In this document: positions 2,700 to 38,315 of the stretch, piece by piece
Position numbering within the stretch: the stretch's first letter is position 1
Layout of the letters: each line of letters opens with the position of its first letter
Source: a virus
Direction: 5' to 3' (one strand)
Virus record (IMG/VR): IMGVR_UViG_3300032308_001496
Coordinates: 1 to 40,105 of that record
DNA: 40,105 bases
The notes under the pieces: model-generated
Seen by the model: only the letters and a program-made list of their open reading frames with translations
Database searches by the model: none
What the model was told of the DNA's origin: nothing
Translations under genes and position numbers: made by a program

Positions 2700-4721
2700 T
2701 TAAGCTGCGTTGCGTGTCTCGGTCGGCGGGTTGGACGGGCCAGCGGCCTCGATTGAGACGTTGCGGATTTCTGGCCGGTGAGCCGTGGTTTGAAATTCAA
2801 GCTCGGCGTAGTGCGCTTTTTGGCGGATCGGCTGCTTAAGTGAGTAATCTTCGCCGACTCCTGAGTCGTTGGACTGGCCGGGCAGCAGAGTGATCGTGCG
2901 GTCGGGGTTCACCAGGATGGCGCGCACCGTAATGCTGCCGGTGTCGGGGAGGACAACATCGGACAGGGCGCGGGTGAAGCGCTTGCTCGTCATCGTGCCC
3001 ATACTGTAGCGACGGGTGATGATGCGACCGGGGACCGGCGTGACGACATCGGCCTCTTGGTCGGGCGACTGGTCGCCTTCTTCAACTTCATCGAGGAGCA
3101 TGAGGCGGCCAGCCTTGTTGCTGACAAAGAGGCGGCGCTCGTTGGCTCGGGTAGCCACCACAAAGTCATCCACGCCGAAGCCGTAGATGTCGCGGGTTTC
3201 CCACTGGTCGTTCAAGGCATTGTATAAAAACACGCCGTTGTTGCTGTCGGCACCGGCCAGCGGGACGGCGAGGTAATAGCGGTTGCTATACCAGAGGCCG
3301 ACCGAGTTCTTGAGCAGGGTGGCGTTGAGGTCGTCGAGCTGGTTGGCGATGGGGTCGCTGAGAGGCTTGGTGTCGCCGCGTAGCTTTAAGTCAAGGCGGC
3401 TGTCGAGGCGGTAGACGCCGGCGTCACTCAGGAAGTAGACGTATTGCCCCGCCGTAGCGATGGACCGGCGGGCCGCGCAGCCGACCTCATCGGTGAGGAG
3501 CGTGAGGCGGGAGAGTGCGGTGTCGATGGCCGTGCCGGTGCCGTCTGTGCTGGAAATCTGGTTCACTTCGGCCAGCCAGATGCTCTTGCGGCAGAAGACG
3601 AGGAAGGTGTTTTCCACCCAGGCATGCACGGCGACGACGAAGTCATTGCTGCCCGCACCGGCGCGGAAGCTGGCCCAAAACGGATCGTAGGTATTGGCGT
3701 CGAGAATATCGCTGATGAGGACGTTGTTCTTGCCGTCTGGAAGGATGAGGCGGTTGTTGATGTAGGTGCCCCACGCCGTTGACCGCATGGTCTTGTAGGT
3801 GGCCGGGAGTCCGGCGGGCACGCCAGCGGGGCTGCGAACGAAGGCGGTTGCAACGCCGTCCCAGTAGAGAGGCGCCTTGACGCGGCGGATGGTGCGGCCG
3901 CTCGTTGTGGCGTCAGTCGCGGTGCCGCTGGGCACCGTGATCGTGAAGCTGTTGCCGTTTGCAGCCACCGTCTGAATGTCGTATTCCACGCCGTCAAAGG
4001 CAGCGACATTGCTCCCCTCGATGCGCACGCGGGCGCCGGCGGGGAAGCCGTGGCCGGTCAGGTTGACGGTCGCCGTGGTCGTGCTGACCTGTATTCCGTT
4101 GGTGGTCACGTTCTTGATGACCCAGCCCGGACGCGAGGCGTCGGCTTCGCGGAAGAGGTAGAGGCGGTCGTTGGCCTGCGTCATGGAAACCGTGTCGGTT
4201 GGCTCAATGATCTCGTCCGGTGATGTCGGGTAGGCCAGCTCCTGCGGGAGCACGCTGATGACGATGTAGTCGCCGTTCTCGTCTACGATCTCCTCGCTGC
4301 CCTGCGAGACGGCAGTAACCAGGAAGCCGCCCGACCAGACACCGGCGAAGGATTGGTTGTCGTCCAAGAGAATCGTGTAAGCACGGTCGCCGCCCGCGAG
4401 CACGACGATCTCGGCGCTTTGCACCTGATCCGGCGAGCGGTAGACGCTGGCCGCAAAGATGCCGCCACTGTAGACGCTCTGCACCACCGGCGCGTTGGGC
4501 GCAGGGTTCAGCACAAAGGGAACTGTGAGCGGCGAGCTGGCCACGCTGATGGCATCCGCCATGCGCTTGGCGCCCTTGCGTGTCACCGCCACGCCACGGT
4601 CGAGCCGCATGTTCTCCGAGAGCTGGAGCATGCCAGCAGGCAGCGCAACCGGATTGATGCGCGAGGCATAGCCTGCGAATCCGGCGTCACCGTCGCGGAG
4701 GATGGGGCTTTCTAAAGGCAT
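2700..4721 (-). CDS. Probable tail nozzle protein with E1-FCCH-like domain (673 aa)
   Basis: Starts MPLESPILRDGDAGFAGYASRINP, as in short-tailed phage tail proteins. Residues about 210-275 hold the ubiquitin-E1-FCCH-like beta domain: TVNLTGHGFPAG, then FDGVEYDIQ, then ANGNSFTI. The rest is beta-propeller-like (AVPLAGADSNNGVFLYN). It likely forms the tail tube tip through which DNA leaves. Late place in the operon fits. Confidence 0.78.
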   Translation of the reverse strand: MPLESPILRDGDAGFAGYASRINPVALPAGMLQLSENMRLDRGVAVTRKGAKRMADAISVASSPLTVPFVLNPAPNAPVVQSVYSGGIFAASVYRSPDQVQSAEIVVLAGGDRAYTILLDDNQSFAGVWSGGFLVTAVSQGSEEIVDENGDYIVISVLPQELAYPTSPDEIIEPTDTVSMTQANDRLYLFREADASRPGWVIKNVTTNGIQVSTTTATVNLTGHGFPAGARVRIEGSNVAAFDGVEYDIQTVAANGNSFTITVPSGTATDATTSGRTIRRVKAPLYWDGVATAFVRSPAGVPAGLPATYKTMRSTAWGTYINNRLILPDGKNNVLISDILDANTYDPFWASFRAGAGSNDFVVAVHAWVENTFLVFCRKSIWLAEVNQISSTDGTGTAIDTALSRLTLLTDEVGCAARRSIATAGQYVYFLSDAGVYRLDSRLDLKLRGDTKPLSDPIANQLDDLNATLLKNSVGLWYSNRYYLAVPLAGADSNNGVFLYNALNDQWETRDIYGFGVDDFVVATRANERRLFVSNKAGRLMLLDEVEEGDQSPDQEADVVTPVPGRIITRRYSMGTMTSKRFTRALSDVVLPDTGSITVRAILVNPDRTITLLPGQSNDSGVGEDYSLKQPIRQKAHYAELEFQTTAHRPEIRNVSIEAAGPSNPPTETRNAA

Positions 4722-21485: not shown

Positions 21486-21845
21486 TTATTTGGTTTGTGG
21501 TTGTGTTTGTGTTGGTACTAAGAAATCGGAGCGGCGCAGGATGGTGAGGAAATCGTCTGCGCGCAGGGTGACGAGCCAGTCCTCGCCAGTGCGCTTATGG
21601 GCAACGACCGGGAAGAGCTTGTCCTTGGCGTCGCGGATAGCCTGGGCGAGCCAGTCTTTGATCTTGGTCACTTGGCAAAATTTGACTTCCCAGTGGATGT
21701 CGGGAAGACACGGGCAGACGACATCGGGCGAGTCGCCGAGGCCGGAGAACTGCTGGCCGCGGCGGATACCGGAGTCGCCAAAGGCTTCGCGCAGCTCGTC
21801 GCGCCACATGCGTTCGCCGCGGGCGCCTTTGGCTCGGGAGTTCAT
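21486..21845 (-). CDS. PD-(D/E)XK nuclease, Holliday-junction resolvase-like (119 aa)
   Basis: GARGERMWRDEL (about residues 7-18), DSPDVV with D41, and HWEVKF with E53 and K55 give the order E-D-E-x-K of small Hjc/resolvase-like nucleases. It likely resolves branched DNA before packaging. It starts 4 nt inside the end of dnaB and precedes the SSB gene. Confidence 0.68.
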   Translation of the reverse strand: MNSRAKGARGERMWRDELREAFGDSGIRRGQQFSGLGDSPDVVCPCLPDIHWEVKFCQVTKIKDWLAQAIRDAKDKLFPVVAHKRTGEDWLVTLRADDFLTILRRSDFLVPTQTQPQTK

Positions 21846-23230
21846 TTGTAGAAGACCTCCTGCACTTGCCGGGAGGGCGCGTATACCGAGTCGTCGCTGT
21901 CTGTAGTGCGGCTGCCGAGGGCGGCGTTTTCAAAGCGGGTCAGGCGCGGACGCCACACCAAGCTGACCTTCCCGGTGGCGCCGGCGCGGTGCTTGGCGAT
22001 GATCAGCTCAGCGTCTTGCGGGTCGGGCTCAGTCTCTTGGTCGGCGGCGTAGTAGCAGGGGCGGTGCAGCAGGCACACCAAGTCGGCGTCTTGCTCGATG
22101 CTGCCGGATTCGCGGAGGTCGCTCATCTTCGGCCGGTTGTCAACGGCTCGCTCGGCGTTGCGGTTCACCTGGGCGGCCGCGATGACCGGGACGCCCAATT
22201 CCATGGCCATCGCCTTTAAGCCTCTTGAGACGAAGCCGACTTCGTTTTCGCGGGATTGGGCGCCGACGTGGCTGACCAGCTGCAGGTAGTCCACAAAGAT
22301 CGCTTTGACGCCCCACCGGCGGACGGCCAAGCGGGCGCGGCCGCGGATGTCCAACATGGTGAGACCGCCGCGGTCGTCTACATAGAGCGGCTCGCTGGCG
22401 AACTGGTCGGCGGCTTGCGTGATGCGCAGCTTCGATGCGTGGTCGAGGAAGCCGTTGCGGATGACTTCGATGTTGGTCTCAGCGCGGCCGAGGACAACGC
22501 GGCAGCCCAGCTCGTTGGCGGGCATTTCGAGGGAGAAATAAAGCGCGGGCACGCCGCGGCGGATCATGTTTTCGCACATGTTCAGCATGAGCGCGGACTT
22601 ACCCATAGCGGGACGGCCGGCAACGATGGTGAGCTGACCTGGGCGCAGGCCGCCGGTCATGTAATCGAATGCCTTGAAGCCGGTCTCAACGCCCAACTTT
22701 TGGCCGGGGATCATCAGCTTCTCCAATTCTTCAAGCAGGCCGGGCACGATGGCAGACGCGGGACGCATGCTGTCGGTGGACTGGCCGAGGGAGAGCGACA
22801 AGACGGACTCTCCGGCGTCCTGCAGGACATCGTCGGCGGGTTGGCTCATGTCGGAGGCGGCGGATTGCAGGCGGCTGGCGGCATGAAGAATGGCGCGGCG
22901 GGCGTGGAGGTCACGCAGGGTCTGGACGTGGTACTCGACCGCCGCGGGTCCACCGGCGGTGTGGCTAACCATGTCGGTCACGGCACCAGCGCCGCCAACG
23001 AACTCAAGGCGGTCGTGGCTGGCGAGGACTTGTGTCACTGCGATGATGTTCGGCACGCCGCCGGCCGCGCGAATGTCGCGGATGACGCCAAAAACTTGGG
23101 CGTGGGCTGGGGTAAAAAAGAGGTCGGCGTTAAGGCCGGCGATCTCGTCGATCATCCCAGGCTCAGACATAAGGGCGCCGAGAACGGCGGCTTCGACCTC
23201 GGGGGCGTTAGGCGTGACTTGTTTTTTCAT
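21842..23230 (-). CDS. dnaB: Replicative DNA helicase, DnaB type (462 aa)
   Basis: The N-terminal domain opens with PNAPEVEAAVLGAL, typical of DnaB. The RecA-like motor has Walker A GRPAMGKSA (residues 205-213), a Walker B region (IFVDYLQLV) and the DnaB signature motifs LKAMAMELGVPVIAAAQVNR and SDLRESGSIEQDADLV. It unwinds DNA at the fork with ATP. The phage has no polymerase, so it would use the host replisome loaded through the initiator at 25548. The start is coupled to the 31-aa membrane gene. Confidence 0.95.
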   Translation of the reverse strand: MKKQVTPNAPEVEAAVLGALMSEPGMIDEIAGLNADLFFTPAHAQVFGVIRDIRAAGGVPNIIAVTQVLASHDRLEFVGGAGAVTDMVSHTAGGPAAVEYHVQTLRDLHARRAILHAASRLQSAASDMSQPADDVLQDAGESVLSLSLGQSTDSMRPASAIVPGLLEELEKLMIPGQKLGVETGFKAFDYMTGGLRPGQLTIVAGRPAMGKSALMLNMCENMIRRGVPALYFSLEMPANELGCRVVLGRAETNIEVIRNGFLDHASKLRITQAADQFASEPLYVDDRGGLTMLDIRGRARLAVRRWGVKAIFVDYLQLVSHVGAQSRENEVGFVSRGLKAMAMELGVPVIAAAQVNRNAERAVDNRPKMSDLRESGSIEQDADLVCLLHRPCYYAADQETEPDPQDAELIIAKHRAGATGKVSLVWRPRLTRFENAALGSRTTDSDDSVYAPSRQVQEVFYK

Positions 23231-23322
23231 GCGTAGGGGTCGTTGTCGTTAGCTTCGAGGATTGCTATGACAATCATCACCAAGAGCAGGAACAGCAGAT
23301 AGCTGAGCAGCAAGGCGTTCAT
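23227..23322 (-). CDS. 31-aa single-span membrane protein
   Basis: A strong GGAGGAAG ribosome site precedes ATG at 23322, and the stop TGA overlaps the DnaB start (ATGA). Almost all of residues 3-22 are hydrophobic (LLLSYLLFLLLVMIVIAIL), followed by a short acidic tail. The ribosome site and coupling are the evidence that this tiny gene is real despite lying inside the end of the 71-aa gene. Function unknown. Confidence 0.62.
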   Translation of the reverse strand: MNALLLSYLLFLLLVMIVIAILEANDNDPYA

Positions 23323-23464
23323 CGCGCTTCCTCCGTAGGTCGGCGCGCCGCTTCAGCCAGCGGTCGCACGCGGCGTCCACCATGGGGATGCTTTCTTCGG
23401 TAAATGGGTCGAGCCATATGTGTGGTGCGGTTTCGGGTTGGGGTAAGTCGGCGAAATTTTCCAT
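23249..23464 (-). CDS. Unknown protein (71 aa)
   Basis: ATG at 23464 is chosen because the longer frame would begin inside the triple TGTCCA array. The protein has an acidic N-terminus and a basic helix (RWLKRRADLRRKRDERL, residues about 35-51) that could bind nucleic acid. Its 3' end overlaps the small membrane gene at 23227-23322 by 74 nt in another frame. No family recognised. Confidence 0.5.
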   Translation of the reverse strand: MENFADLPQPETAPHIWLDPFTEESIPMVDAACDRWLKRRADLRRKRDERLAAQLSAVPALGDDCHSNPRS

Positions 23465-23497
23465 GGCACTTAAGACTGCGTGTGGTGTGCCGCGGTG

Positions 23498-23523
23498 TGT
23501 CCATGAGTGTCCAACAATGTCCA
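23498..23523. promoter_or_regulatory. Triple phased operator TGTCCA
   Basis: TGTCCA occurs at 23498-23503, 23508-23513 and 23518-23523, exactly 10 bp apart, in the gap between two minus-strand genes. The first ten bases, TGTCCATGAG, also occur at 31934 in the integrase start. With three perfect copies in phase this is the clearest operator-like array of the genome. No -10/-35 was recognised nearby. Confidence 0.62.
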
Positions 23524-23525
23524 CA

Positions 23526-23780
23526 TCATGGCAAGGGTTTTTCTTGGGGTGGGTAAAGATTTCTTGGGTCAGTGGCGAGAAGGGCTTCGTGCTTGGCGTC
23601 GGACGCCTTGGGGGTCAGCGCGGCGCAGCCTTGGAGGGCGGCCCTGAGCTGATTGCGCTGGGCGATTAGCTCGGCCACTTCAGCCTCGAGGTCGCGGATG
23701 TCAGCGGCCTGAGCGGCGACCTGACTGCGGAGAAACGAGGTCTCCGCAGTGGGGCCGAAGTTGATTTGTCCGAGGGTCAC
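23526..23780 (-). CDS. Coiled-coil protein, unknown (84 aa)
   Basis: Residues about 15-55 form a strong predicted coiled coil (QVAAQAADIRDLEAEV, then ELIAQRNQLRAALQ). The C-terminus is Pro-rich. It overlaps the previous gene by 4 nt and ends 3 bases before the triple TGTCCA site. No family recognised. Confidence 0.6.
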   Translation of the reverse strand: MTLGQINFGPTAETSFLRSQVAAQAADIRDLEAEVAELIAQRNQLRAALQGCAALTPKASDAKHEALLATDPRNLYPPQEKPLP

Positions 23781-29011: not shown

Positions 29012-29136
29012 GGCAACCTCCCAATGCGGTTGATCATTTCAAAGACGATGAATCCTCCAAGGAGGACAACAATGACCGACGCGAAAACCGGGTCGGTGAG
29101 GTAGCTTAGAACTTCCAGTGGTGTTGGATGTTTCAT
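29008..29136 (-). CDS. Small single-span membrane protein (42 aa)
   Basis: One strongly hydrophobic segment (VFASVIVVLLGGFIVF) spans residues about 17-32, with a short charged tail ending in RIGRLP. The ATG overlaps the stop of the HTH gene (ATGA) and the stop overlaps the next start, so it is translated as part of the chain. It would sit in the inner membrane. No family is recognised; such small early membrane proteins often act on host functions, but nothing here shows it. Confidence 0.65.
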   Translation of the reverse strand: MKHPTPLEVLSYLTDPVFASVIVVLLGGFIVFEMINRIGRLP

Positions 29137-29372
29137 AGTTGTGGTGTGTTTGTTTGTTTTTCAGTCTGTCCACATGTGTCCACATGCGAGACATTGAAAG
29201 TGCGTTCGGCAATGAATGCGTCGAGTGCCCGGATGCTGACCCGTGTGCCGCGCTGCGGGCCGACCTTGAACGCCGGCAACTCGCCGCTGGCGATGAAGCC
29301 GCGGAGCGTGGCGTTGCGAACGCGCAGGGCTTGCGCGGCCTCGCTGACAGTCAGGGCAAGGTGGGCGTGCAT
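29133..29372 (-). CDS. Excisionase/MerR-type helix-turn-helix protein (79 aa)
   Basis: Residues 7-55 match the small excisionase-family HTH: LTVSEAAQAL first helix, a recognition helix near ATLRGFI, then GELPAFKVG and a strand-like R-x-S-I followed by LDAFIAER. Proteins of this family act as recombination directionality factors or Cro-like regulators. ATG at 29372 is the start that gives a normal domain; a longer frame runs back into the switch region. It is the first gene of the long minus-strand operon, and its stop overlaps the next start (ATGA). Two TGTCCACATG copies lie inside its 3' end. Confidence 0.78.
   Translation of the reverse strand: MHAHLALTVSEAAQALRVRNATLRGFIASGELPAFKVGPQRGTRVSIRALDAFIAERTFNVSHVDTCGQTEKQTNTPQL
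29167..29186. promoter_or_regulatory. Tandem operator-like pair TGTCCACATG
   Basis: Two perfect 10-bp copies of TGTCCACATG stand head to tail in the 3' end of the HTH gene, about 31 nt upstream of the next start. They share TGTCC and the 10-bp step with the switch region. No -35/-10 is evident, so a stoperator-type roadblock is more likely than a promoter operator. Confidence 0.5.
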
Positions 29373-29480
29373 TGCGTGGAGATTCGCAGACAGTCGTGGA
29401 CACTGCAAGACATTTTTTCGCGAGCCGTGGGGCCAAGACCCTATTTGACAAATGTCCCGAAGTGTCCCTAAGTGAATCCT
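29373..29480. promoter_or_regulatory. Divergent lysogeny switch region
   Basis: This 108-bp gap separates the plus-strand RHH-like gene from the minus-strand HTH gene. Rightward: TTGACA at 29445-29450 with operator copies TGTCCC at 29453 and 29463 inside the spacer and only a poor -10 near 29468-29474. Leftward: a weak TTGCAG (29403-29408) and GAATCT (29380-29385) pair with 17-bp spacing. In that spacer GGACA-like sites lie at 29378 (GGAGA), 29388 (AGACA), 29398 (GGACA) and 29408 (AGACA), exactly 10 bp apart. Both genes lack a Shine-Dalgarno sequence and could be leaderless. Confidence 0.6.
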
Positions 29481-29732
29481 ATGAAAACCAACAAACGACT
29501 GGTCGGCGCCCGGAGATCGGTGCACGCCAACCTAAGTAGCGGCAACCATGCGCGGCTCCTACGCCACGCCGAGGCCGCTAATCTCAGCGCATCCAAGTAC
29601 GCCGGCGTTGCCGTCGACTTCCTGCTTGACCTCGAGGAAGCATTCGGCGGCCCGCTGACGGAGCAGTTCCGGCGCATGCTGGTCGGCTCGGCAAACAAAG
29701 CCCAGGTCGCCCTCAAAAAACTGCTGGCGTAA
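29481..29732 (+). CDS. Ribbon-helix-helix-like protein, candidate lysogeny repressor (83 aa)
   Basis: Residues about 11-55 follow the ribbon-helix-helix pattern: a basic strand (RRSVHANLS), a first helix ending in AEAANLS, then a second helix starting SKYAGVAVDFLL. Such proteins bind DNA as dimers and often recognise tandem short sites. The gene diverges from the excisionase-type gene, and its own promoter spacer holds two TGTCCC copies 10 bp apart. ATG at 29481 is preferred over 29472 because the expected transcription start falls just before it; there is no Shine-Dalgarno sequence, so the mRNA may be leaderless. The repressor role is inferred from position, size and sites; no CI-like protein exists elsewhere in the genome. 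Confidence 0.65.
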   Translation: MKTNKRLVGARRSVHANLSSGNHARLLRHAEAANLSASKYAGVAVDFLLDLEEAFGGPLTEQFRRMLVGSANKAQVALKKLLA

Positions 29733-29782
29733 GTCGCTGGGGATTAGCCCTTAGAAACTATCTTCACTTTGGCTGAAAATAG

Positions 29783-29821
29783 TTGTGGACAGATTGGGAC
29801 GGACTGCATAACTTGGGGACA
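29783..29821 (+). promoter_or_regulatory. Candidate promoter with phased GGACA operators
   Basis: TTGTGG at 29783-29788 and GCATAA at 29806-29811 form a weak -35/-10 pair with a 17-bp spacer, pointing to the 29852 gene. GGACA at 29787, GGACG at 29797 and GGACA at 29817 lie on one 10-bp register (the 29807 position is empty). The three sites cover the -35, the spacer and the expected start of transcription. Confidence 0.5.
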
Positions 29822-29851: not shown

Positions 29852-30040
29852 ATGAAAAACACCACACATCGCAACAAAGTCCGCAGCAGCATCGCGGTCT
29901 TCCACTACACCGGAGATGACTACGTCATTGTCCGCGGCATCGGCGGCACCGAGATCCTCGGTCGCCACAAAACACTGCGCGAGGCGTCCGAGGCGTGCAG
30001 CAAATACAACCAACAACTGGCCAAGGAACTAGGAGCTTAA
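29852..30040 (+). CDS. Small protein, unknown (62 aa)
   Basis: The ATG at 29852 lies in the A/C-rich leader ACACACCACATGAAA and lacks a Shine-Dalgarno sequence. The protein has a beta-rich N-terminal half (IAVFHY, YVIVRG) and a C-terminal helix, a layout like small domains that repeat sequence such as LETLREA in other phage proteins. A candidate promoter with three phased GGACA-type sites lies just upstream (29783-29821), so this gene may be under repressor control. An in-frame upstream start at 29783 would run through those sites and is less likely. Confidence 0.6.
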   Translation: MKNTTHRNKVRSSIAVFHYTGDDYVIVRGIGGTEILGRHKTLREASEACSKYNQQLAKELGA

Positions 30041-30455: not shown

Positions 30456-30848
30456 ATGCGCTCCATCGCCACCATCGTCAGATACGCCGCTCCTCTGGCG
30501 GTGGTGGTGCTGGCCGGCTGTGCAACAACGCCGGAGCCCAAGCCCTTTGTGCCCACCGCACCAAAAGCTCGAGTTATGGCCGTCCATAGCATTCCCACCG
30601 GCATGATGGTCATGGTGAACGAAGAATGGGCCGGCATCACGCCATGCGTTATCATGCTGCCTGCGGACAGCGACGGCGGGTTCAAGGGGCCGCTGCTCAC
30701 GATGATCGACGCCGTGCCGGTCACCGGCGGGCTGAAGTCCACAAAGATCTGGTGGCCCGGTCAGCGGATACCCTCGAGGGTTGTCTTCACGCTGCCTTGG
30801 GCGCCGCCTCAGCCGGCGAAGAGGGCGGACTTGGTTGTGGCGCCTTAA
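30456..30848 (+). CDS. PEGA-like lipoprotein, candidate lysogenic-conversion gene (130 aa)
   Basis: A lipoprotein signal peptide (about 23 residues) ends in the lipobox LAGC, so the mature protein should be anchored in a membrane by a lipidated cysteine. After a Pro-rich linker, residues about 45-70 follow the PEGA pattern: S-x-P-T-G, then V-M-V-N, then G-I-T-P. PEGA domains are surface or periplasmic beta modules. It lies with the plus-strand genes beside the integrase, the place where prophages keep genes expressed in the lysogen, so superinfection exclusion or host-surface change are reasonable guesses. ATG follows the previous stop by one base. Confidence 0.75.
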   Translation: MRSIATIVRYAAPLAVVVLAGCATTPEPKPFVPTAPKARVMAVHSIPTGMMVMVNEEWAGITPCVIMLPADSDGGFKGPLLTMIDAVPVTGGLKSTKIWWPGQRIPSRVVFTLPWAPPQPAKRADLVVAP

Positions 30849-31939
30849 TCCGGCAGCTCAACCCGCTGATCCATGGTCGCGTAGTGCCGCTCGGTCGTGC
30901 TGCTCGTTGTGTGCCCAAGGAACCGCGACACGGTCGAGATCCGGCCGGTGGCGTTGAGCAGGTCGCTGCCCGCCTGCTTGCGCAGACAGTAGAGTAAGTC
31001 CTTGCGCCCAGGCAGGAACTCCCGCAGCCAGTTGTTCATGATGCGCATGCACCAGTTGTGGCGTGTGTACGCCGTCCCTCCGGGCACCATGTAGTCGTCC
31101 GCTTCCAGCAGCTCTGCGGCGACCGCATCGGGGAGCACGATCTGCCGCTGCCGCCGCGATCCGGTTTTAAGCGTAAAACTCTCCTCCGGCCGCTGCACGA
31201 TGAGCAGCTCATGCTTGTTGCCCCGCTTCTCAATCCAGCTCTTGCGGCACGCCGCAATCTCGGTCGGCGTCATCCCGCAGCGTCGGGCCAGCAGGAACGC
31301 CCGACGAATCCCGCCGCCGGCCATCTTGCTCTTGTCCTCCAGCAGCTGCAGCACATCTGCGGTGAGGGGAACGAAGGCATCAAGGTTCGCGCGGATGCCG
31401 GTCTTGACGGTCGCATCGCGGAACTCGGCGAGGTCCGGCAAGTCAAAGCCCTCCCAGTCATTCGCCCGGCAGAAGACTGCGCGGCCCATGGCAAGGTTGG
31501 TCTTCTGCGAGGCCGGCGCCAGCTTGGTCTTGCGCAGGAAGTCGGAGACCAGCTTGCGGTTAAGGCGGGTGAGGGGAAGCGCGCGGAGTTTCTCCCGGTC
31601 GGTGACGCCCAAGCCGTCCCGCAGGACAACCAGCAGTGCGTTGACGTTGTCCTTCCGCGAACATACCTTACTTGCCGCCTCATAATGATCGCACGCCGCT
31701 CCAATCGATTCGCAGGAAGTCTTCCGGGCAAACTGCTTCAGCGCGGCCAGCCCATCCGCGGCCGTCTGATCCAGAATGACCTTGGCCTTGGCCTTGGCGG
31801 TCGGGAGGTCGGAGGTGCCCAGGCTGATGCGTTGCCGCTTGCGGGAGGACGGGTGACGAAAGTGCATCCGGTAAAACGGCGATGCGCCGATCTTGTGAAG
31901 TGTTCCAGTAAGCCCGCGGTGCGTGATGGTGGTGTCCAT
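30845..31939 (-). CDS. int: Tyrosine-type site-specific integrase (364 aa)
   Basis: The gene lies about 160 bp from attP, the usual arrangement. ATG at 31939 is preferred to an upstream TTG at 31948. The N-terminal part has an arm/SAM-like core-binding domain; the catalytic half has a beta-strand lysine (K258), LRKQAGS with R320, the LGH histidine (H343) and the RHYA tyrosine nucleophile (Y353). Two usual residues differ: the GLR-type arginine position reads GMT (residues 222-224) and the box II H-x-L-R reads Y-C-L-R (317-320 region). A neighbouring arginine pair (R219, R220) might compensate. It should recombine attP with a host tRNA-Thr gene. It converges with the lipoprotein gene, overlapping it by 4 nt. 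Confidence 0.88.
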   Translation of the reverse strand: MDTTITHRGLTGTLHKIGASPFYRMHFRHPSSRKRQRISLGTSDLPTAKAKAKVILDQTAADGLAALKQFARKTSCESIGAACDHYEAASKVCSRKDNVNALLVVLRDGLGVTDREKLRALPLTRLNRKLVSDFLRKTKLAPASQKTNLAMGRAVFCRANDWEGFDLPDLAEFRDATVKTGIRANLDAFVPLTADVLQLLEDKSKMAGGGIRRAFLLARRCGMTPTEIAACRKSWIEKRGNKHELLIVQRPEESFTLKTGSRRQRQIVLPDAVAAELLEADDYMVPGGTAYTRHNWCMRIMNNWLREFLPGRKDLLYCLRKQAGSDLLNATGRISTVSRFLGHTTSSTTERHYATMDQRVELPD

Positions 31940-31984
31940 GAGTGGCAATATGGAGCCGCCTTCGGACGCTTGTCAAACCATGTG

Positions 31985-32197
31985 TGCCACAATGTGCCAA
32001 AGTATGACCGCACTATGTCAGCCGGTGTGGCAGAAACAATCGATCTTACGGACCTTCTCGGACGCTTGCGGAACAGTGTCTACAGTAGAATTTGGGAGTC
32101 GCCGGTATAGCTCAGCTGGTAGAGCACCTGATTTGTAATAAGCTGCTGTGCCCAGCATCCATGCGGGTCTTTGGGGAGTGTGGCTGGCGGTGTGGCA
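31985..32197. promoter_or_regulatory. attP arm region with TGTGGCA-type repeats
   Basis: Copies of TGTGGCA or its complement flank the core on both sides: TGCCACA at 31985-31991, TGCCAAA at 31995-32001, TGTGGCA at 32026-32032, then TGTGGCT at 32179-32185 and TGTGGCA at 32191-32197. Left and right pairs at 10-12 bp spacing are what arm-type integrase or directionality-factor sites look like. This 320-bp stretch (31940-32260) otherwise holds only the attP core and the terminator. Confidence 0.6.
32101..32139 (+). other. attP: attP core: 5' half of a tRNA-Thr(TGT) gene
   Basis: These 39 bases match the start of a tRNA gene: acceptor strand GCCGGTA, a D stem GCTC/GAGC with an AGCTGGTA loop, the anticodon 5' stem CCTGA and the loop TTTGTAA, with anticodon TGT (Thr). 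The similarity stops right after the anticodon loop; no 3' stem, T arm or acceptor 3' strand follows. A half tRNA next to an integrase gene is the signature of a phage attachment site. Integration here would replace the 5' half of the host gene, so the sequence upstream of 32101 would have to drive the rebuilt tRNA. Confidence 0.88.
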
Positions 32198-32260: not shown

Positions 32261-32485
32261 CTATGAGCGGAACAAATCCGCTAAACGCGCGAAATCGTCC
32301 GCGGTCGGCTCCCAATTTTCATCGGCAGCCTTGCCACCCGCGGTAACGAAGTAGCGGTCCTTACCGGGTTCCGGCCGCAAGGATTGCTCGCCGGCGCCCC
32401 AATTGATCTTGCGCATTGCTTCTGCGAAGGTCGGCTGGGGTTGCTGTTGTGTATTCTTCAATTCCGTAGACTGCTGTTGAGACAT
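32261..32485 (-). CDS. Small unknown protein, last gene of the late operon (74 aa)
   Basis: ATG at 32485 has a strong GGAAGGA ribosome site 6-7 nt upstream. The protein is Gln-rich at its N-terminus and acidic at its C-terminus, with no cysteine and no membrane segment. Its first 125 nt overlap the 3' end of the giant virion gene in another frame. It is followed by the terminator at 32204-32227, so it closes the long minus-strand transcript. Function unknown. Confidence 0.65.
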   Translation of the reverse strand: MSQQQSTELKNTQQQPQPTFAEAMRKINWGAGEQSLRPEPGKDRYFVTAGGKAADENWEPTADDFARLADLFRS

Positions 32486-35400
32486 ATCCTTCCTTTCTAT
32501 AGCTAACATTATCTTCTTTCTCGAGGTTGGCAATGGCCTTTCTGGCTTTTTGCGCCCAATCAGTGGCATTTATCGCAAACTGATCCGGGTTCAAATGATC
32601 CAATGTGTCATACCTGGCCGAGATCTCTGGAACATATTGCGAGCGAACGCCTAGCGCATCGCCGCGCTCGTTCCTGGCGATGGTGAATCCGTCGATACCA
32701 TTGGCCTGGAAGGCCGCTGTGACCGCATCCACCTGCGCCTTCGTGGCCGCGCTCTTAAATCCAACCTCTACCATGGGCCGTGCATTCGGGTGCAACTGAT
32801 CGACCACTAGGCTGATGATCACATCCTTCTGGTTGTTCCGCCGTGCTGTCTCGATAGCGCTTCGCATCACCGGTTCAATGCTGGGCGAAACGTCGCCGCG
32901 GCGGTTGACACTGAACTCCACATCGAAGCTCGGCTCCACGACATCGCCGTAAAGTCCCTCCGATTCCGTTATGCGCGCCGCTTCAAGTCCATCGAGTCCG
33001 CGCACGCTCTCTCGGAATGTAGCCATCTCCGACCGCTGCACCGCAGGATCAAACTGTTCCGGTGTCGTGAACGTCGTCAGCCCGACCTGGTAACGATCCA
33101 CGTTGAGCTTGCCGGCCTCCTTGTCGAACGAGCTTTTCTCCGCGCCCGTCTTGTCGGTCCAATCGTTGGCCTCCCAGATATCCTTTTCGTTAAACCACTG
33201 CAGTGCTTGGAGGTCGTCCGTTGCAATGCCCATTCTCTTGCCCACCTCGTCGTAGACTTTTTGGCCAAAGAAAAAGTCAGCGTCGGCAACGCCCTGTTCC
33301 TGCTCTGGCAAGATGCGCCAGCGCTTCGACTTGCCTTGATATAGCAGGCGTCTCAGGTTGCGCGCAGCCCACACGTCAATGGTCGCCTTGAACGTGCGCC
33401 CAGTAAGGTTGCCGGCAAAGTTTGGAGTCTTCGGCCCCTTGGTCTGCGCGATCCAATTGCCATACAGCGCATGCAGAACCTTGGTGCTGTTAGCGTTGTA
33501 TTTCTTACCGTTGTTGCGCAGCGGGACTTCGTCAAATTTGTTGACCTGCTTGCGGTATTCGTCTTGCAGCTTGAAGGTTCCCTTGCCGCCCTTTTTGCGC
33601 CAGTCAGCCTCCATCTTGCCGCTGTCAGCGTCTGCCTTCTTCTGCATGACAAACGCATCGAAGCGACCCAGCAGTTCATCATACCCGCCGCGTCCAAAGA
33701 TCTGCAGAGCCTCGCGCGCCTGAACAAAGTTTGTGTCTACCGGCGTCCTCGCCGATGTGGCGCCGAGGAGCTGGCCAAACAGCTCGATGGTTGATCCATA
33801 AGCCTGCTGCAGCCAGCCGCGCATCCGGCCATACCAACCGATGCCCTTAGCGATGGCGGGATTGGCCTGCCCGCGGCGCGCGTCCGCCTCCATCAAATCC
33901 GCGGCTTGCTGCACCGCTCGGGCCTCGTCCTTGGACAGCCCCGGGGCTTTGCGCAGGTCGTATTGCGCCTTACGATAAATGGCGCCAAATTTCTGATTGC
34001 CGCGCGCATCAAGCACCGGGTTACCGTCCGCGTCTTCGATTAGCCCAACCTTTGGCAGCCCACGGTCGTCGCGCGTCACCTCTAAGCGCGCCGCCTCGGG
34101 ATTGTTCTTGGCCACCTCGGCAATGCGTTGTTGCGCCTCGGTGATTGCTTGGCGTTCGCGGGCGCCGAGATACTGCTTGGCGTCTTGCAGCGGCAAGCCG
34201 GTGAAAAATTCCTTCTCAGCGCGCGCCCTGGCCTTTGCCTCGGTCGGATACTCAGCCAGCTTGCTCGGCGGCAGCATCGTTTGTGTGCCGTCCTTGTTTG
34301 CTGCCATCATAGGCGCCGTGTACACCGCCCAGTTGCCGTTCTTTTGCTGCCTAAGCATGCCCAGCGGCTCGTAGTCGCCAGCCGGGTTGCGCTGGACCAT
34401 GGTTTGCTGGCCGGCAGCATCCGGCATCGCCTGCCCACGCTGCGCCCCGCCACGCTCAAGCCCCGGGGGATCTTCCAACAGCTTAGACGGCCGGCGCCCG
34501 CTATCGTACACCTCGCGGTTATGTCGCGCCGCCGCGGCCCGCGATTCACTCGGCGTCTCGCCCATTGGATTGTCCATGGTGTCTGAGCCAAAGCGGAAGA
34601 AGCCGTCCTCGCTAATGCTGCCGGCGCCGATGGCCAAGAAGTCCGGCCCGAGATCCTCGTTGGTCTCAAGGTGCGTACGCTTGTTGGTGCTGACCACACG
34701 GCCGCCTGAGCCGACGAACGCGGCACGCCTGGCTCGCTCGTTAAGCGGGATGTCTGCTCGCTCACTGTAGCCCACATCCGGCATCCCCTGAGCCTCCCGC
34801 GGGATCTGCTGGGGCATGCGGTTGTTGTTCTCCTTGTCGTAATCGAAGAAATAGCCGGTGCGTCCAGTAGACTTAGCATCGTTGAGCCGGTCCACGCGCC
34901 AAGTGCGCAGGCTGCCCTTGGGGTTCAGCTCTGCGTAAAGGGGATTGGCCGCGCGCTGCACAGCCGTGCCGGTACCAATAAGTCCGTTGAGGATGTCTCG
35001 TTTGGCTTGACCAATGGTCGCCTCGCCAGGACGGCCTTCGCGGTGATTGGCCAGCCGAATTTTTAGGTCGGCCTCAACCTGCTTCATGTCGTTGTTGAAA
35101 ATGCCGAGTTCGCCCCTGTTGATTGCCTTCATGGTCGCCGCGCGGAAGGCGTTGAGGTCAATAGCCACGGCCAGCAAATGGTTGGCCTTAGATACCTGCC
35201 AGCCGATCGGCACGGTCTCGCGCTGGATAGCGCGCACGTTGCCCATGTTGGTGATGCGGTAGCGTCCACTTGATCCGGTGCCAATGGCGTTGTAGTCAAT
35301 GTCCCAGCTGCCGCCCTCGGCGCGGCTGGCTTCCATGCCGCGGGCAAACTCGCGGACGTGCTGCGGGAATTGCGTGAAGAGGTCAAACTGCGGCGGCAGC

Positions 35401-38315
35401 ACCGGCCCGCCGATGACCTCGCGTCCGTTGACCTTGCGCTTGCCAAACTCGGTTGAGTTGACCGGCACAAACTTCTTCGCATCGTACAGCGTCTTGATCT
35501 GCGCTGCGCGGTTGGCCTCGGCGGCATTGATGATCGGCTGCGGCTTGTAGGCGTAGGTGCCGTCCGGCTTTTGGAACAGGAAGTCATTCTCCAGCACGCC
35601 GCGGCCCTCGTCCCGCAGCTTGACGTGCGTGCTGCGCGCCATGTCCTGTGGGCGGCTGCTACGCGCCAACTCCACGCCGCGGGGCGTTGCGCTGCCAGCC
35701 TCCTCGAGGCCGACCAGGTACTGATCGTAGGCGCGCACATATTCCTTCACCCGCTTCTGCATGATGCGGTCTTGGAAGAGCGGATTGTCGCGGAAGAGGA
35801 CGGACGGATTGTCCAGCATCTTGCCGGTGCCGCCGTCCAAGCGCACACCCATCACCTCCAGTACGCGCCCGCCGGCGGCCAGCATTGACTCGGCCAAGCG
35901 TGGAAACGCCCCGTCACGGCGGATGCCGCGGAAGTCAATGGCCGGAGCCTCCGAGGCAAACGTCTCAGCGATCACCTCGTCGCGCGCCCAGTCCAAGGCG
36001 TCCTCGCCGCGCTCAATGCTCCGCTGTGACAGTTCTTCGTAGCGCTCGTTGATCAGCCTCTCCCGCTCGCTCGGCTCCAGCTTGCGGCCCTTGGCAATGT
36101 CTGACGGCGACTTGTTGCCACTCTCAAGGTCGCGGAACTCCTGCTCAGTGAGCACTTGGGGCAGCTCCCCGGTTGTTCCGTTTTGAATGTCTCCATCGAC
36201 CAAGCGGCCGACATACTCGCGGCCGCGGGCCTGCACGCCGTCTGCCCCATACTGCTGGTTGACCAAGTTGCGCAGGTCATTGCGTGGCTGCCCATCAAGG
36301 ACGTTGCTCGTCAGGATGGCGTGCCCAATCTCATGCGGCACGATGGCCCCGACACCGCCGGCTGACTTGCGGGCGTCGAGATTGATGAAGACCCGGGCGC
36401 GTCCGTTAGCGTCCTTCTCGAGGAACAGTCCCGCGGCCAATTCACCGCCGGTCGCCGAGACATCCTTGTTCATCCGATATTCGTCCGCCTTGAGAGGAAC
36501 AAAATCCACCTTGCCTGACAGCACGCCCTGCATTGCCGCCATGCGGTCCAGCGTGGCGTGCGGCAGTGCCGAAAGGGCATCCACATTGCCGCCCACGGCA
36601 TAGACATCAGCCATCATCCGAGCCACATCTGCGTCTGGCGCCGTGCTCCGGCGACCGATGGCACCGCCGACCAGTCCTCCAGCACCGCCGAGGGCCATGA
36701 TGCCGCCGAAGACCTCACCGGCGCGCTCGGCATCCGGCTGCAGGGCCGCAAAGGGCGCTCCGGTGATCCCGGCCGCCACCGCTCCGCTGGTCGCATCGTC
36801 AGCCAAACGTGCCGCTGTGGTCACGCCAGCGCGGTCGGCAAAGCGAGCCACACGGCGCAGTGCCTCTGGGTTGCCAGCGTCCTGCGACACCCGCTTGAGT
36901 GTGCTATCGGTGCCGTCAACGTAGCCTGTAAAGTATTTCCGATAGCGCTCAGGGATTGCCGTCATGCGCGCCAAGTCGGCCGCCGCCTCCGCCCGCGCCG
37001 TGCCGATGCCGCCTACGCCCGCCTCGCGGATGATGGTCGCCGCACCGCCGGCCGCCGCTCCGGTCTTGCGGATGATCGCACCGCCGTAGCGCAGCCCTGG
37101 CAGCACACTGCCGATGGCCGTGACCGCCGCGGTGATGTTGCCGCCGCCGCCCGCTGCGTCCGCATAGACCGCCGCGCCCGCCGCACCGGCGCCCAGTGCC
37201 GCCTGCTGCTTGGCCGTTAGGCCAGTGATGTCCTGCACGCGGCTGCTGATGCCAAACTCCATCCGCTCAGCAAGGTCTGCCGTGGCATCCGCCGCACGCT
37301 GCACGCCCCGGAGCGGAGCGCCGGCTAGGGTTGCCGTCCTACGCAGCACACGCAGCTTGCTCAGCGCGCCCGCACCCAGAGGCACCAAGTTGACCGGGTC
37401 GAGGGCCATTGAGCCAATCATCGACAGCGTCTCCGCGGGCTGCTCGTCGGTGATCTGGTAAGCCTCTCTGCTTGTCGCTGGCGCCGTCATCTTGCTGGCG
37501 CCCACTTGAAAATCTGTCACTCCCGCGAACTCCTGCTCCAGCGACTTCTCCCGCTGGTAGCGATCATAAGCCTTGTCGAAGTCCTCTTCCTCCTCCACTG
37601 GCGTTGGCTCCATGGCGTCTGCCTCGCTGGCCGCCGCGGCAATGATGTTGGCGTCCTGCAGCTCATCGCCGGTCAGCTTGCCCTCCTGCTCAAGGCGCTT
37701 GGCCAATGCCTGGTGCTTCAGCCCGCGCCGCTTCGCCCAGGTCGTGGCGTCATCGACCTTGTTGCCGACCCAGTCAAAGAGCTGCACCATGTTGATGCCG
37801 GCCTTGCGGATGGTTTCTGCGCCAGTCTGCACGTTGCGCTGCACTTGGTTGACCGGATCGGTGACCATGCCGACCATGCCATCGCGGATCTCTTGGCCCG
37901 CCTCGGGGATCATGGCGAGCATGCCCGCTGCGCCTTGGCCAACGCCCTTAATGAAGCGTCCGACCTCGTTGTTCTCTTCCTTGCGTCGCGTCCAATACTG
38001 CCGGAACTCCTCCTGCGGCATGATGTAGTCCGCGCGACGGTAGTTCTCCTCCTCGAGCTGGTTCAGCTCGTAGTCCGTCATCGGCTCCGGCTCTGCGGGA
38101 GCCTCGGGCGGCAGGGCAATGCCGCGCTCGCGGGCAAACGGCGTGGAGGCCAGCGTTGGCAGCGCATCAAGCTGCTGGTCGGTGAAGCCCTGAGCCGGAG
38201 CAGGGGATGCGGCAAGGCGATCCACCAGCCCGGTGGTGATCTCCGGCTGTCCCTGCTGAGCTTCAAGCTCGGCGAGTTGCTCGTCGGTGAGTCCGTCTAG
38301 CGTACCTGGTACCAT
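32361..38315 (-). CDS. Giant internal virion protein with zinc-metallopeptidase motif (1984 aa)
   Basis: This is by far the largest gene, 15% of the genome. The N-terminal 400 residues alternate charged coiled-coil-like stretches with Ala/Gly-rich segments that could cross membranes. A HEIGH zincin motif lies at residues 661-665, with a downstream E-containing helix (VIAETFA) that could supply the third zinc ligand. Residues about 1600-1750 (with the NLTGR, TIDVWAARN and later QALQWF motifs) resemble domains of large polyvalent phage proteins. Such giants are packed in the capsid and ejected with DNA in short-tailed phages; a protease could act on host targets or help cross the envelope. Its 3' end overlaps the next gene by 125 nt in another frame. 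Confidence 0.82.
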   Translation of the reverse strand: MVPGTLDGLTDEQLAELEAQQGQPEITTGLVDRLAASPAPAQGFTDQQLDALPTLASTPFARERGIALPPEAPAEPEPMTDYELNQLEEENYRRADYIMPQEEFRQYWTRRKEENNEVGRFIKGVGQGAAGMLAMIPEAGQEIRDGMVGMVTDPVNQVQRNVQTGAETIRKAGINMVQLFDWVGNKVDDATTWAKRRGLKHQALAKRLEQEGKLTGDELQDANIIAAAASEADAMEPTPVEEEEDFDKAYDRYQREKSLEQEFAGVTDFQVGASKMTAPATSREAYQITDEQPAETLSMIGSMALDPVNLVPLGAGALSKLRVLRRTATLAGAPLRGVQRAADATADLAERMEFGISSRVQDITGLTAKQQAALGAGAAGAAVYADAAGGGGNITAAVTAIGSVLPGLRYGGAIIRKTGAAAGGAATIIREAGVGGIGTARAEAAADLARMTAIPERYRKYFTGYVDGTDSTLKRVSQDAGNPEALRRVARFADRAGVTTAARLADDATSGAVAAGITGAPFAALQPDAERAGEVFGGIMALGGAGGLVGGAIGRRSTAPDADVARMMADVYAVGGNVDALSALPHATLDRMAAMQGVLSGKVDFVPLKADEYRMNKDVSATGGELAAGLFLEKDANGRARVFINLDARKSAGGVGAIVPHEIGHAILTSNVLDGQPRNDLRNLVNQQYGADGVQARGREYVGRLVDGDIQNGTTGELPQVLTEQEFRDLESGNKSPSDIAKGRKLEPSERERLINERYEELSQRSIERGEDALDWARDEVIAETFASEAPAIDFRGIRRDGAFPRLAESMLAAGGRVLEVMGVRLDGGTGKMLDNPSVLFRDNPLFQDRIMQKRVKEYVRAYDQYLVGLEEAGSATPRGVELARSSRPQDMARSTHVKLRDEGRGVLENDFLFQKPDGTYAYKPQPIINAAEANRAAQIKTLYDAKKFVPVNSTEFGKRKVNGREVIGGPVLPPQFDLFTQFPQHVREFARGMEASRAEGGSWDIDYNAIGTGSSGRYRITNMGNVRAIQRETVPIGWQVSKANHLLAVAIDLNAFRAATMKAINRGELGIFNNDMKQVEADLKIRLANHREGRPGEATIGQAKRDILNGLIGTGTAVQRAANPLYAELNPKGSLRTWRVDRLNDAKSTGRTGYFFDYDKENNNRMPQQIPREAQGMPDVGYSERADIPLNERARRAAFVGSGGRVVSTNKRTHLETNEDLGPDFLAIGAGSISEDGFFRFGSDTMDNPMGETPSESRAAAARHNREVYDSGRRPSKLLEDPPGLERGGAQRGQAMPDAAGQQTMVQRNPAGDYEPLGMLRQQKNGNWAVYTAPMMAANKDGTQTMLPPSKLAEYPTEAKARARAEKEFFTGLPLQDAKQYLGARERQAITEAQQRIAEVAKNNPEAARLEVTRDDRGLPKVGLIEDADGNPVLDARGNQKFGAIYRKAQYDLRKAPGLSKDEARAVQQAADLMEADARRGQANPAIAKGIGWYGRMRGWLQQAYGSTIELFGQLLGATSARTPVDTNFVQAREALQIFGRGGYDELLGRFDAFVMQKKADADSGKMEADWRKKGGKGTFKLQDEYRKQVNKFDEVPLRNNGKKYNANSTKVLHALYGNWIAQTKGPKTPNFAGNLTGRTFKATIDVWAARNLRRLLYQGKSKRWRILPEQEQGVADADFFFGQKVYDEVGKRMGIATDDLQALQWFNEKDIWEANDWTDKTGAEKSSFDKEAGKLNVDRYQVGLTTFTTPEQFDPAVQRSEMATFRESVRGLDGLEAARITESEGLYGDVVEPSFDVEFSVNRRGDVSPSIEPVMRSAIETARRNNQKDVIISLVVDQLHPNARPMVEVGFKSAATKAQVDAVTAAFQANGIDGFTIARNERGDALGVRSQYVPEISARYDTLDHLNPDQFAINATDWAQKARKAIANLEKEDNVSYRKEGYVSTAVYGIEEYTTATPADLRRSNAQDQLGRRRAILAAGTR

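Follow-up and report, generated by a model that had tools for sequence, protein, structure and literature searches.

A candidate autoregulated immunity repressor and its helically phased operators in a group of uncultivated temperate phages

Gene organization and phased repeats of the switch region

The stretch of DNA analysed here, hereafter the window, is a virus record of 40,105 bp. Divergent transcription is apparent around an intergenic region at 29373-29480: leftward from 29372 lie a gene of the HTH_17 family, small genes, nucleases and the replication operon, and rightward from 29481 lie a gene for a protein of 83 amino acids and then further small genes, with the integrase gene facing them. 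The genes concerned are as follows.

29481-29732, plus strand: 83-aa protein, the proposed immunity repressor, ribbon-helix-helix (RHH)-like (RRSVHANLSSGNHARLLRHAEAANLSASKYAGVAV); an open reading frame with relatives, tracked by operator type
29133-29372, minus strand: HTH_17 protein of excisionase type, first gene of the leftward operon (Pfam HTH_17, E 2.5e-10)
23249-23464, minus strand: 71-aa gene, first of the operon behind the triple operator
21842-23230, minus strand: DnaB-type replicative helicase of the replication operon, an open reading frame named from its sequence
29852-30040, plus strand: cargo gene of 62 aa in a variable slot behind an operator-promoter, occupied by other small open reading frames in relatives
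30845-31948, minus strand: tyrosine integrase (Phage_integrase, E 6.9e-5, slightly short of the Pfam cut-off), conserved in relatives

The helicase is 48-95% identical in 17 of 18 relatives. The HTH_17 protein is probably a recombination directionality factor (RDF), or excisionase. No CI-like repressor was recognised among ten window proteins scanned with Pfam.

Words of the type TGTCC/GGACA recur at a pitch of 10 bp in five control regions, listed below. The preliminary description had reported two of these arrays, with TGTCCC at 29453 and 29463 and GGACA-like words at 29378, 29388, 29398 and 29408, and every one of these sites lies where it was placed. Three arrays of the same kind had been missed: 29167/29177, 29787/29797/29817 (in which the second copy has one mismatch) and 23498/23508/23518.

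29445-29472, plus strand: two phased operators, TGTCCCGAAG TGTCCCTAAG (29453-29472), after TTGACA in the proposed promoter of the repressor gene; from the sequence
29378-29412, minus strand: a run of four phased operators, weaker than the others, ahead of the leftward HTH gene; from the sequence, kept in near relatives L030-L033
29167-29186, plus strand: operator pair TGTCCACATG TGTCCACATG upstream of a leftward operon of small genes starting at 29136; in the same place in all clade-1 relatives
29782-29821, minus strand: operators preceding the rightward cargo gene (GGACA at 29787, GGACG at 29797, GGACA at 29817); from the sequence and a weight-matrix array, kept in relatives
23498-23527, plus strand: triple operator, TGTCCATGAG TGTCCAACAA TGTCCACATC, that precedes the leftward replication operon and lies 6 kb from the 83-aa gene; a conserved triple in relatives

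Of the five regions, 29378-29412 has the weakest words: its four copies read GGAGA, AGACA, GGACA and AGACA on the plus strand. Only one of these matches GGACA exactly, yet near relatives L030-L033 keep the run. The window contains five same-strand TGTCC or GGACA pairs at a spacing of 10, as against about 0.14 expected, so the earlier estimate of about 0.1 was about right. In 500 dinucleotide shuffles, 459 had no such pair and none had more than two, and TGTCC/GGACA at spacing 10 ranks first in enrichment among all 5-mers at spacings of 6-40 in the window. The pair at 2951/2961, inside an open reading frame at 2700-4721, is probably due to chance.

The TGTCCC pair had also been placed between TTGACA and an expected -10 element. 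It does start 2 bp past TTGACA (29445-29450), and the register of TTGACA, two nucleotides and operator is kept in both clades, but no strong -10 follows; a scan with the sigma-70 consensus found no promoter and only a weak -10 after TTGACA. A candidate leftward promoter for the HTH gene may be formed by TTGCAG (29408-29403) and GAATCT (29385-29380) with a spacing of 17. The start codon of the repressor gene falls close to the expected transcription start, so the message may be leaderless.

The sequence CACACCAC recurs at 23488, 29148, 29844 and 30258, just upstream of several start codons near operators, and is possibly a leader or ribosome-binding element that replaces the Shine-Dalgarno sequence. 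The slot at 29852-30040, directly behind the repressor gene and the conserved operator-promoter, holds differing small open reading frames in the window and in L030-L068 (well over ten unrelated sequences by eye), which often begin just past CACACCACA; genes that interact with the host or counter its defences may be the cargo here.

Beyond the integrase gene, at 32100-32140, lies a fragment with similarity to the 5' portion of a tRNA (GCCGGTATAGCTCAGCTGGTAGAGCACCTGATTTGTAAT), in which ARAGORN found no complete tRNA; its position suggests a candidate attP, and other integrase types carry other tRNA-like fragments. Between the integrase gene and this fragment (31986-32033) is a second set of repeats with a pitch of 10-11 bp, reading TGTGCCA in the window. 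Repeats of 10-11 bp pitch upstream of the integrase gene are also present in G001-G004, G008, G010-G013 and G015, those of G001 and G003 being of AGTCTG type. They are likely to be integrase arm or excisionase sites, and their word differs from that of the repressor operators. An open reading frame of 1984 aa (32361-38315, minus strand) possibly encodes a large polyvalent or injected virion protein.

Two operator types in related phages

The preliminary description had proposed that the motif and its spacing be sought in related phages, and had regarded retention of the gene with loss of the phased sites as evidence against its reading. Arrays with the same 10-bp pitch are present at homologous places, and the relatives keep the phase, only the letters having changed in one clade. 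The near relatives of the window have arrays identical in type, including those at 29782-29821, and in 14 further full records the same places hold 10-bp arrays spelled TGTTGGCA. These clade-2 arrays, of GGCA type, occupy the places of 29378-29412, of 29167 and of the replication operator. At the replication operator, TGT is invariant at all three units in four aligned records from both clades.

Operator sequence co-varies with the 83-aa protein across the related phages. Pairs of TGTCC at spacing 10 occur in all four records whose 83-aa protein has His at position 15 (clade 1, G001-G004) and in none of the 14 records with Phe or Tyr there (clade 2); TGTCC is found only with His15, and TTGGCA only with Phe15 or Tyr15. 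In cross-scans, the clade-1 operator matrix found no array in clade 2 and the clade-2 matrix found one in clade 1; the cognate matrices found 21 and 67 arrays, but since the matrices were trained on these same regions, it is the cross-scans and not the cognate counts that carry weight. The switch of repressor and operator between clades amounts to essentially one deep event and one chimera, so that few independent changes underlie the correlation.

The protein that tracks operator type

A comparison of 18 window proteins over 18 records showed a division matching operator type in only three: the 83-aa protein, the HTH protein and the integrase. The HTH_17 protein (29133-29372) might bind the arrays as a head-to-tail filament and regulate the divergent promoters in the manner of phage 186 Apl. 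Direct repeats with a pitch of one helix turn are bound by RDFs, among them Apl at sites between early promoters (PMC7498355), and the MerR-like protein BldC binds direct repeats cooperatively (PMC5859096); the HTH gene adjoins the arrays, and the two clades have different recognition-helix regions in its product. A test for two-fold symmetry in the operator units gave no significant result (P 0.27 and 0.12), so that a head-to-tail HTH protein would fit them too.

This explanation is nevertheless unlikely. The repressors of L058-L062 and L063-L068 are nearly identical and their operators agree, whereas in L063-L068 only the first codons of the HTH gene remain and an HTH_17 gene unrelated to it lies further left. 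L034 and L036 differ in their HTH proteins in like manner. The HTH protein was rejected as the specificity determinant because the operators are unchanged where its gene has been deleted or replaced. The replication operon, 6 kb away, is preceded by an array as well, and the repeats of 10-11 bp in the attP region are built on a different word. The integrase was likewise rejected as specificity factor: the 83-aa proteins of G005 and G006 are one residue apart and their operators are shared, yet their integrases are only 44% identical.

Some other phage or host protein could bind the arrays, with the 83-aa gene as a hitch-hiker; the comparison covered 18 window proteins. Within those 18, however, the only candidates besides the 83-aa protein are the two excluded by the swaps above, and a shift of word between phages with a common backbone, such as the window and the chimera described below, would hardly be expected of a host factor; hitch-hiking is accordingly rated very improbable. 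The comparisons give good support to the view that the 83-aa protein, and not its excisionase-type neighbour, would set the sequence of the phased sites.

A chimeric genome and two relatives without the repressor

G013 is 86-99% identical to the window over many early genes and 91-94% identical in TerL, DnaB and a lipoprotein gene. Its repressor and integrase are only 52% and 46% identical to those of the window, and its HTH protein is foreign. The replication operator of G013, 6 kb away, has three units of the foreign (GGCA) type in the same register. Its gene-side flank is of window type, whereas its promoter-distal flank resembles clade 2, so that the operator may stem from recombination and not from mutation in place; by either route it matches the new repressor in type.

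Two separate records, G019 and G020 (L113 and L114), have TerL proteins 91% identical to that of the window and have lost the module. The match to the repressor reading frame ends after MKTNKR, the HTH gene is missing, and the integrase lacks residues 163-333. No recognisable array is present in the promoter-like sequence TTGCAT-16-TATAGT ahead of their cargo gene. The genes lost are those that a move to obligately lytic life would remove, and G019 and G020 are probably natural lytic derivatives.

Relatives and predicted fold of the 83-aa protein

Relatives of the 83-aa protein were found in 39 viral contigs; four are near (93-96% identical) and the remainder are 49-64% identical. Two scans of genome contigs found none, and neither a DNA search of annotated phage records nor one with a clade-2 83-aa protein as query found any. 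A plasmid search gave three weak matches (E 0.7-2). The nearest annotated TerL, that of Phage C75C1, is 32% identical.

RHH transcription factors are dimers of strand-helix-helix subunits that place a two-stranded sheet in the major groove of DNA, and their specificity is determined by alternate residues of the N-terminal strand. The best RHH profile match of the 83-aa family is FitA-like_RHH (E 0.06, below the cut-off, in two of 12 members), and there are no other RHH-type matches in NCBIfam, PHROGs or PDB. AlphaFold2 models from two alignments have pLDDT of 60-63, with helices at about 20-32 and 35-55 and no strand, and a Foldseek search of PDB with the first model found no match; a profile comparison against a single RHH protein, RelB, had no power. 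A weak NCBIfam match to CopC, a periplasmic copper protein (E 0.0015 at best, six members), was judged to be chance. Position 15 (His versus Phe/Tyr) is the one residue of the putative strand RRSVHANL that consistently follows operator type, while many positions elsewhere in the protein also differ between clades. An RHH fold is plausible from the sequence pattern and the FitA-like_RHH match, and the proposal that the 83-aa protein sets operator specificity is independent of it.

Proposed role in lysogeny and immunity

These observations are quite probably explained by the 83-aa protein being an autoregulated lysogeny or immunity repressor of a temperate phage, with operators that co-evolve with it. 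It would bind arrays made up of two to four 10-bp units arranged head to tail, the unit being TGTCC[AC]NNNN in the window clade and TGTTGGCATC in the other, and the 10-bp pitch would place neighbouring, presumably dimeric, protein units on one helix face, where they could cooperate. The arrays lie in or beside the putative promoters of the HTH operon, the repressor gene itself, the second leftward operon of small genes, the replication operon and the rightward cargo gene. Bound repressor would cover the spacer between -35 and -10 and block RNA polymerase at lytic promoters, and the operator pair in the spacer after TTGACA suggests that it would also damp its own promoter. The HTH_17 protein would more likely serve as excisionase.

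The locus had been read as the lysogeny switch in the preliminary description, and that reading is strengthened by the position of the module, which adjoins the integrase gene and diverges from a long leftward operon, by its loss together with the integrase gene in two near relatives, and by its exchange along with matching operators in G013. Alternatively, the 83-aa protein may bind the arrays as an early-gene or Cro/Arc-like regulator while another factor holds the prophage. Operators at its own promoter fit Cro-like feedback too, and Arc and Mnt of P22 are RHH regulators although the prophage repressor of that phage is C2. Divergence from the leftward operon, proximity to the integrase gene, joint loss with it and the Pfam scan of ten window proteins in which no CI-like repressor was recognised all weigh against this alternative, which is given little probability.

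Beyond the repressor assignment, it is conceivable, though on balance doubtful, that the 83-aa proteins form an RHH-like repressor family not described before, in which heteroimmunity arises by re-spelling five phased arrays with phase and register kept, specificity is determined mainly by His15 versus Phe/Tyr15, and the cargo slot is under the same control.

The two operator types, the chimera and the repressor-less relatives form a compact natural series in which co-evolution of repressor and operator can be read directly. The series would predict which of these uncultivated phages are immune to which others, and the hypothesis of one-residue specificity at position 15 becomes testable in vitro without a host. 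Phased direct repeats that adjoin an excisionase gene are not necessarily excisionase sites.

Comparison with known systems

Arc and Mnt of P22 and MetJ are RHH regulators that act on short, cooperatively bound sites; Arc and Mnt are not the main prophage repressor, which is C2. None has a sequence match to the 83-aa protein, and the length and pitch of their sites differ. In phage 186, Apl is the product of an HTH gene that is first in the lytic operon, and its binding sites between early promoters are direct repeats spaced by one helix turn (PMC7498355). Helically phased repeats at the switch and an HTH gene at the head of the lytic operon are common to both systems. Apl differs in that the HTH protein itself binds both the arrays and the att site through one word, whereas here the array sequence follows another gene; the dependence of array sequence on the HTH protein that is characteristic of Apl and RDFs was not found, the operators being unchanged without the HTH gene.

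Cluster A mycobacteriophages (L5, Bxb1 and D29) have many sites throughout the genome, with a consensus that differs between heteroimmune relatives along with the repressor, and D29 is obligately lytic after a deletion at the 5' end of its repressor gene (PMC6550527). The co-variation of repressor and operator is shared with the present group, and D29 parallels the gene loss in G019 and G020. The Cluster A repressor, monomeric with two domains and an asymmetric site (PMC9283540), is unrelated to the 83-aa protein, and the Cluster A stoperators mostly stop elongation instead of forming 10-bp promoter arrays.

F55 of the archaeal virus SSV1 is a small RHH protein, called reminiscent of CI, that keeps lysogeny and binds tandem repeats (consensus ATAGATAGAGT) within or beside early promoters and at its own promoter (PMC5569661). 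The 83-aa protein would resemble it as a small lysogeny regulator that acts on tandem repeats, but the virus and promoters of F55 are archaeal and its repeat sequence is unrelated; it has an RHH fold, whereas that of the 83-aa protein is putative. For F55, the passages drawn on here describe no parallel shift of repressor and operator type (PMC5569661). The present system combines features of SSV1 F55 and of the Cluster A phages in a group of uncultivated bacteriophages, for which a bacterial host is assumed.
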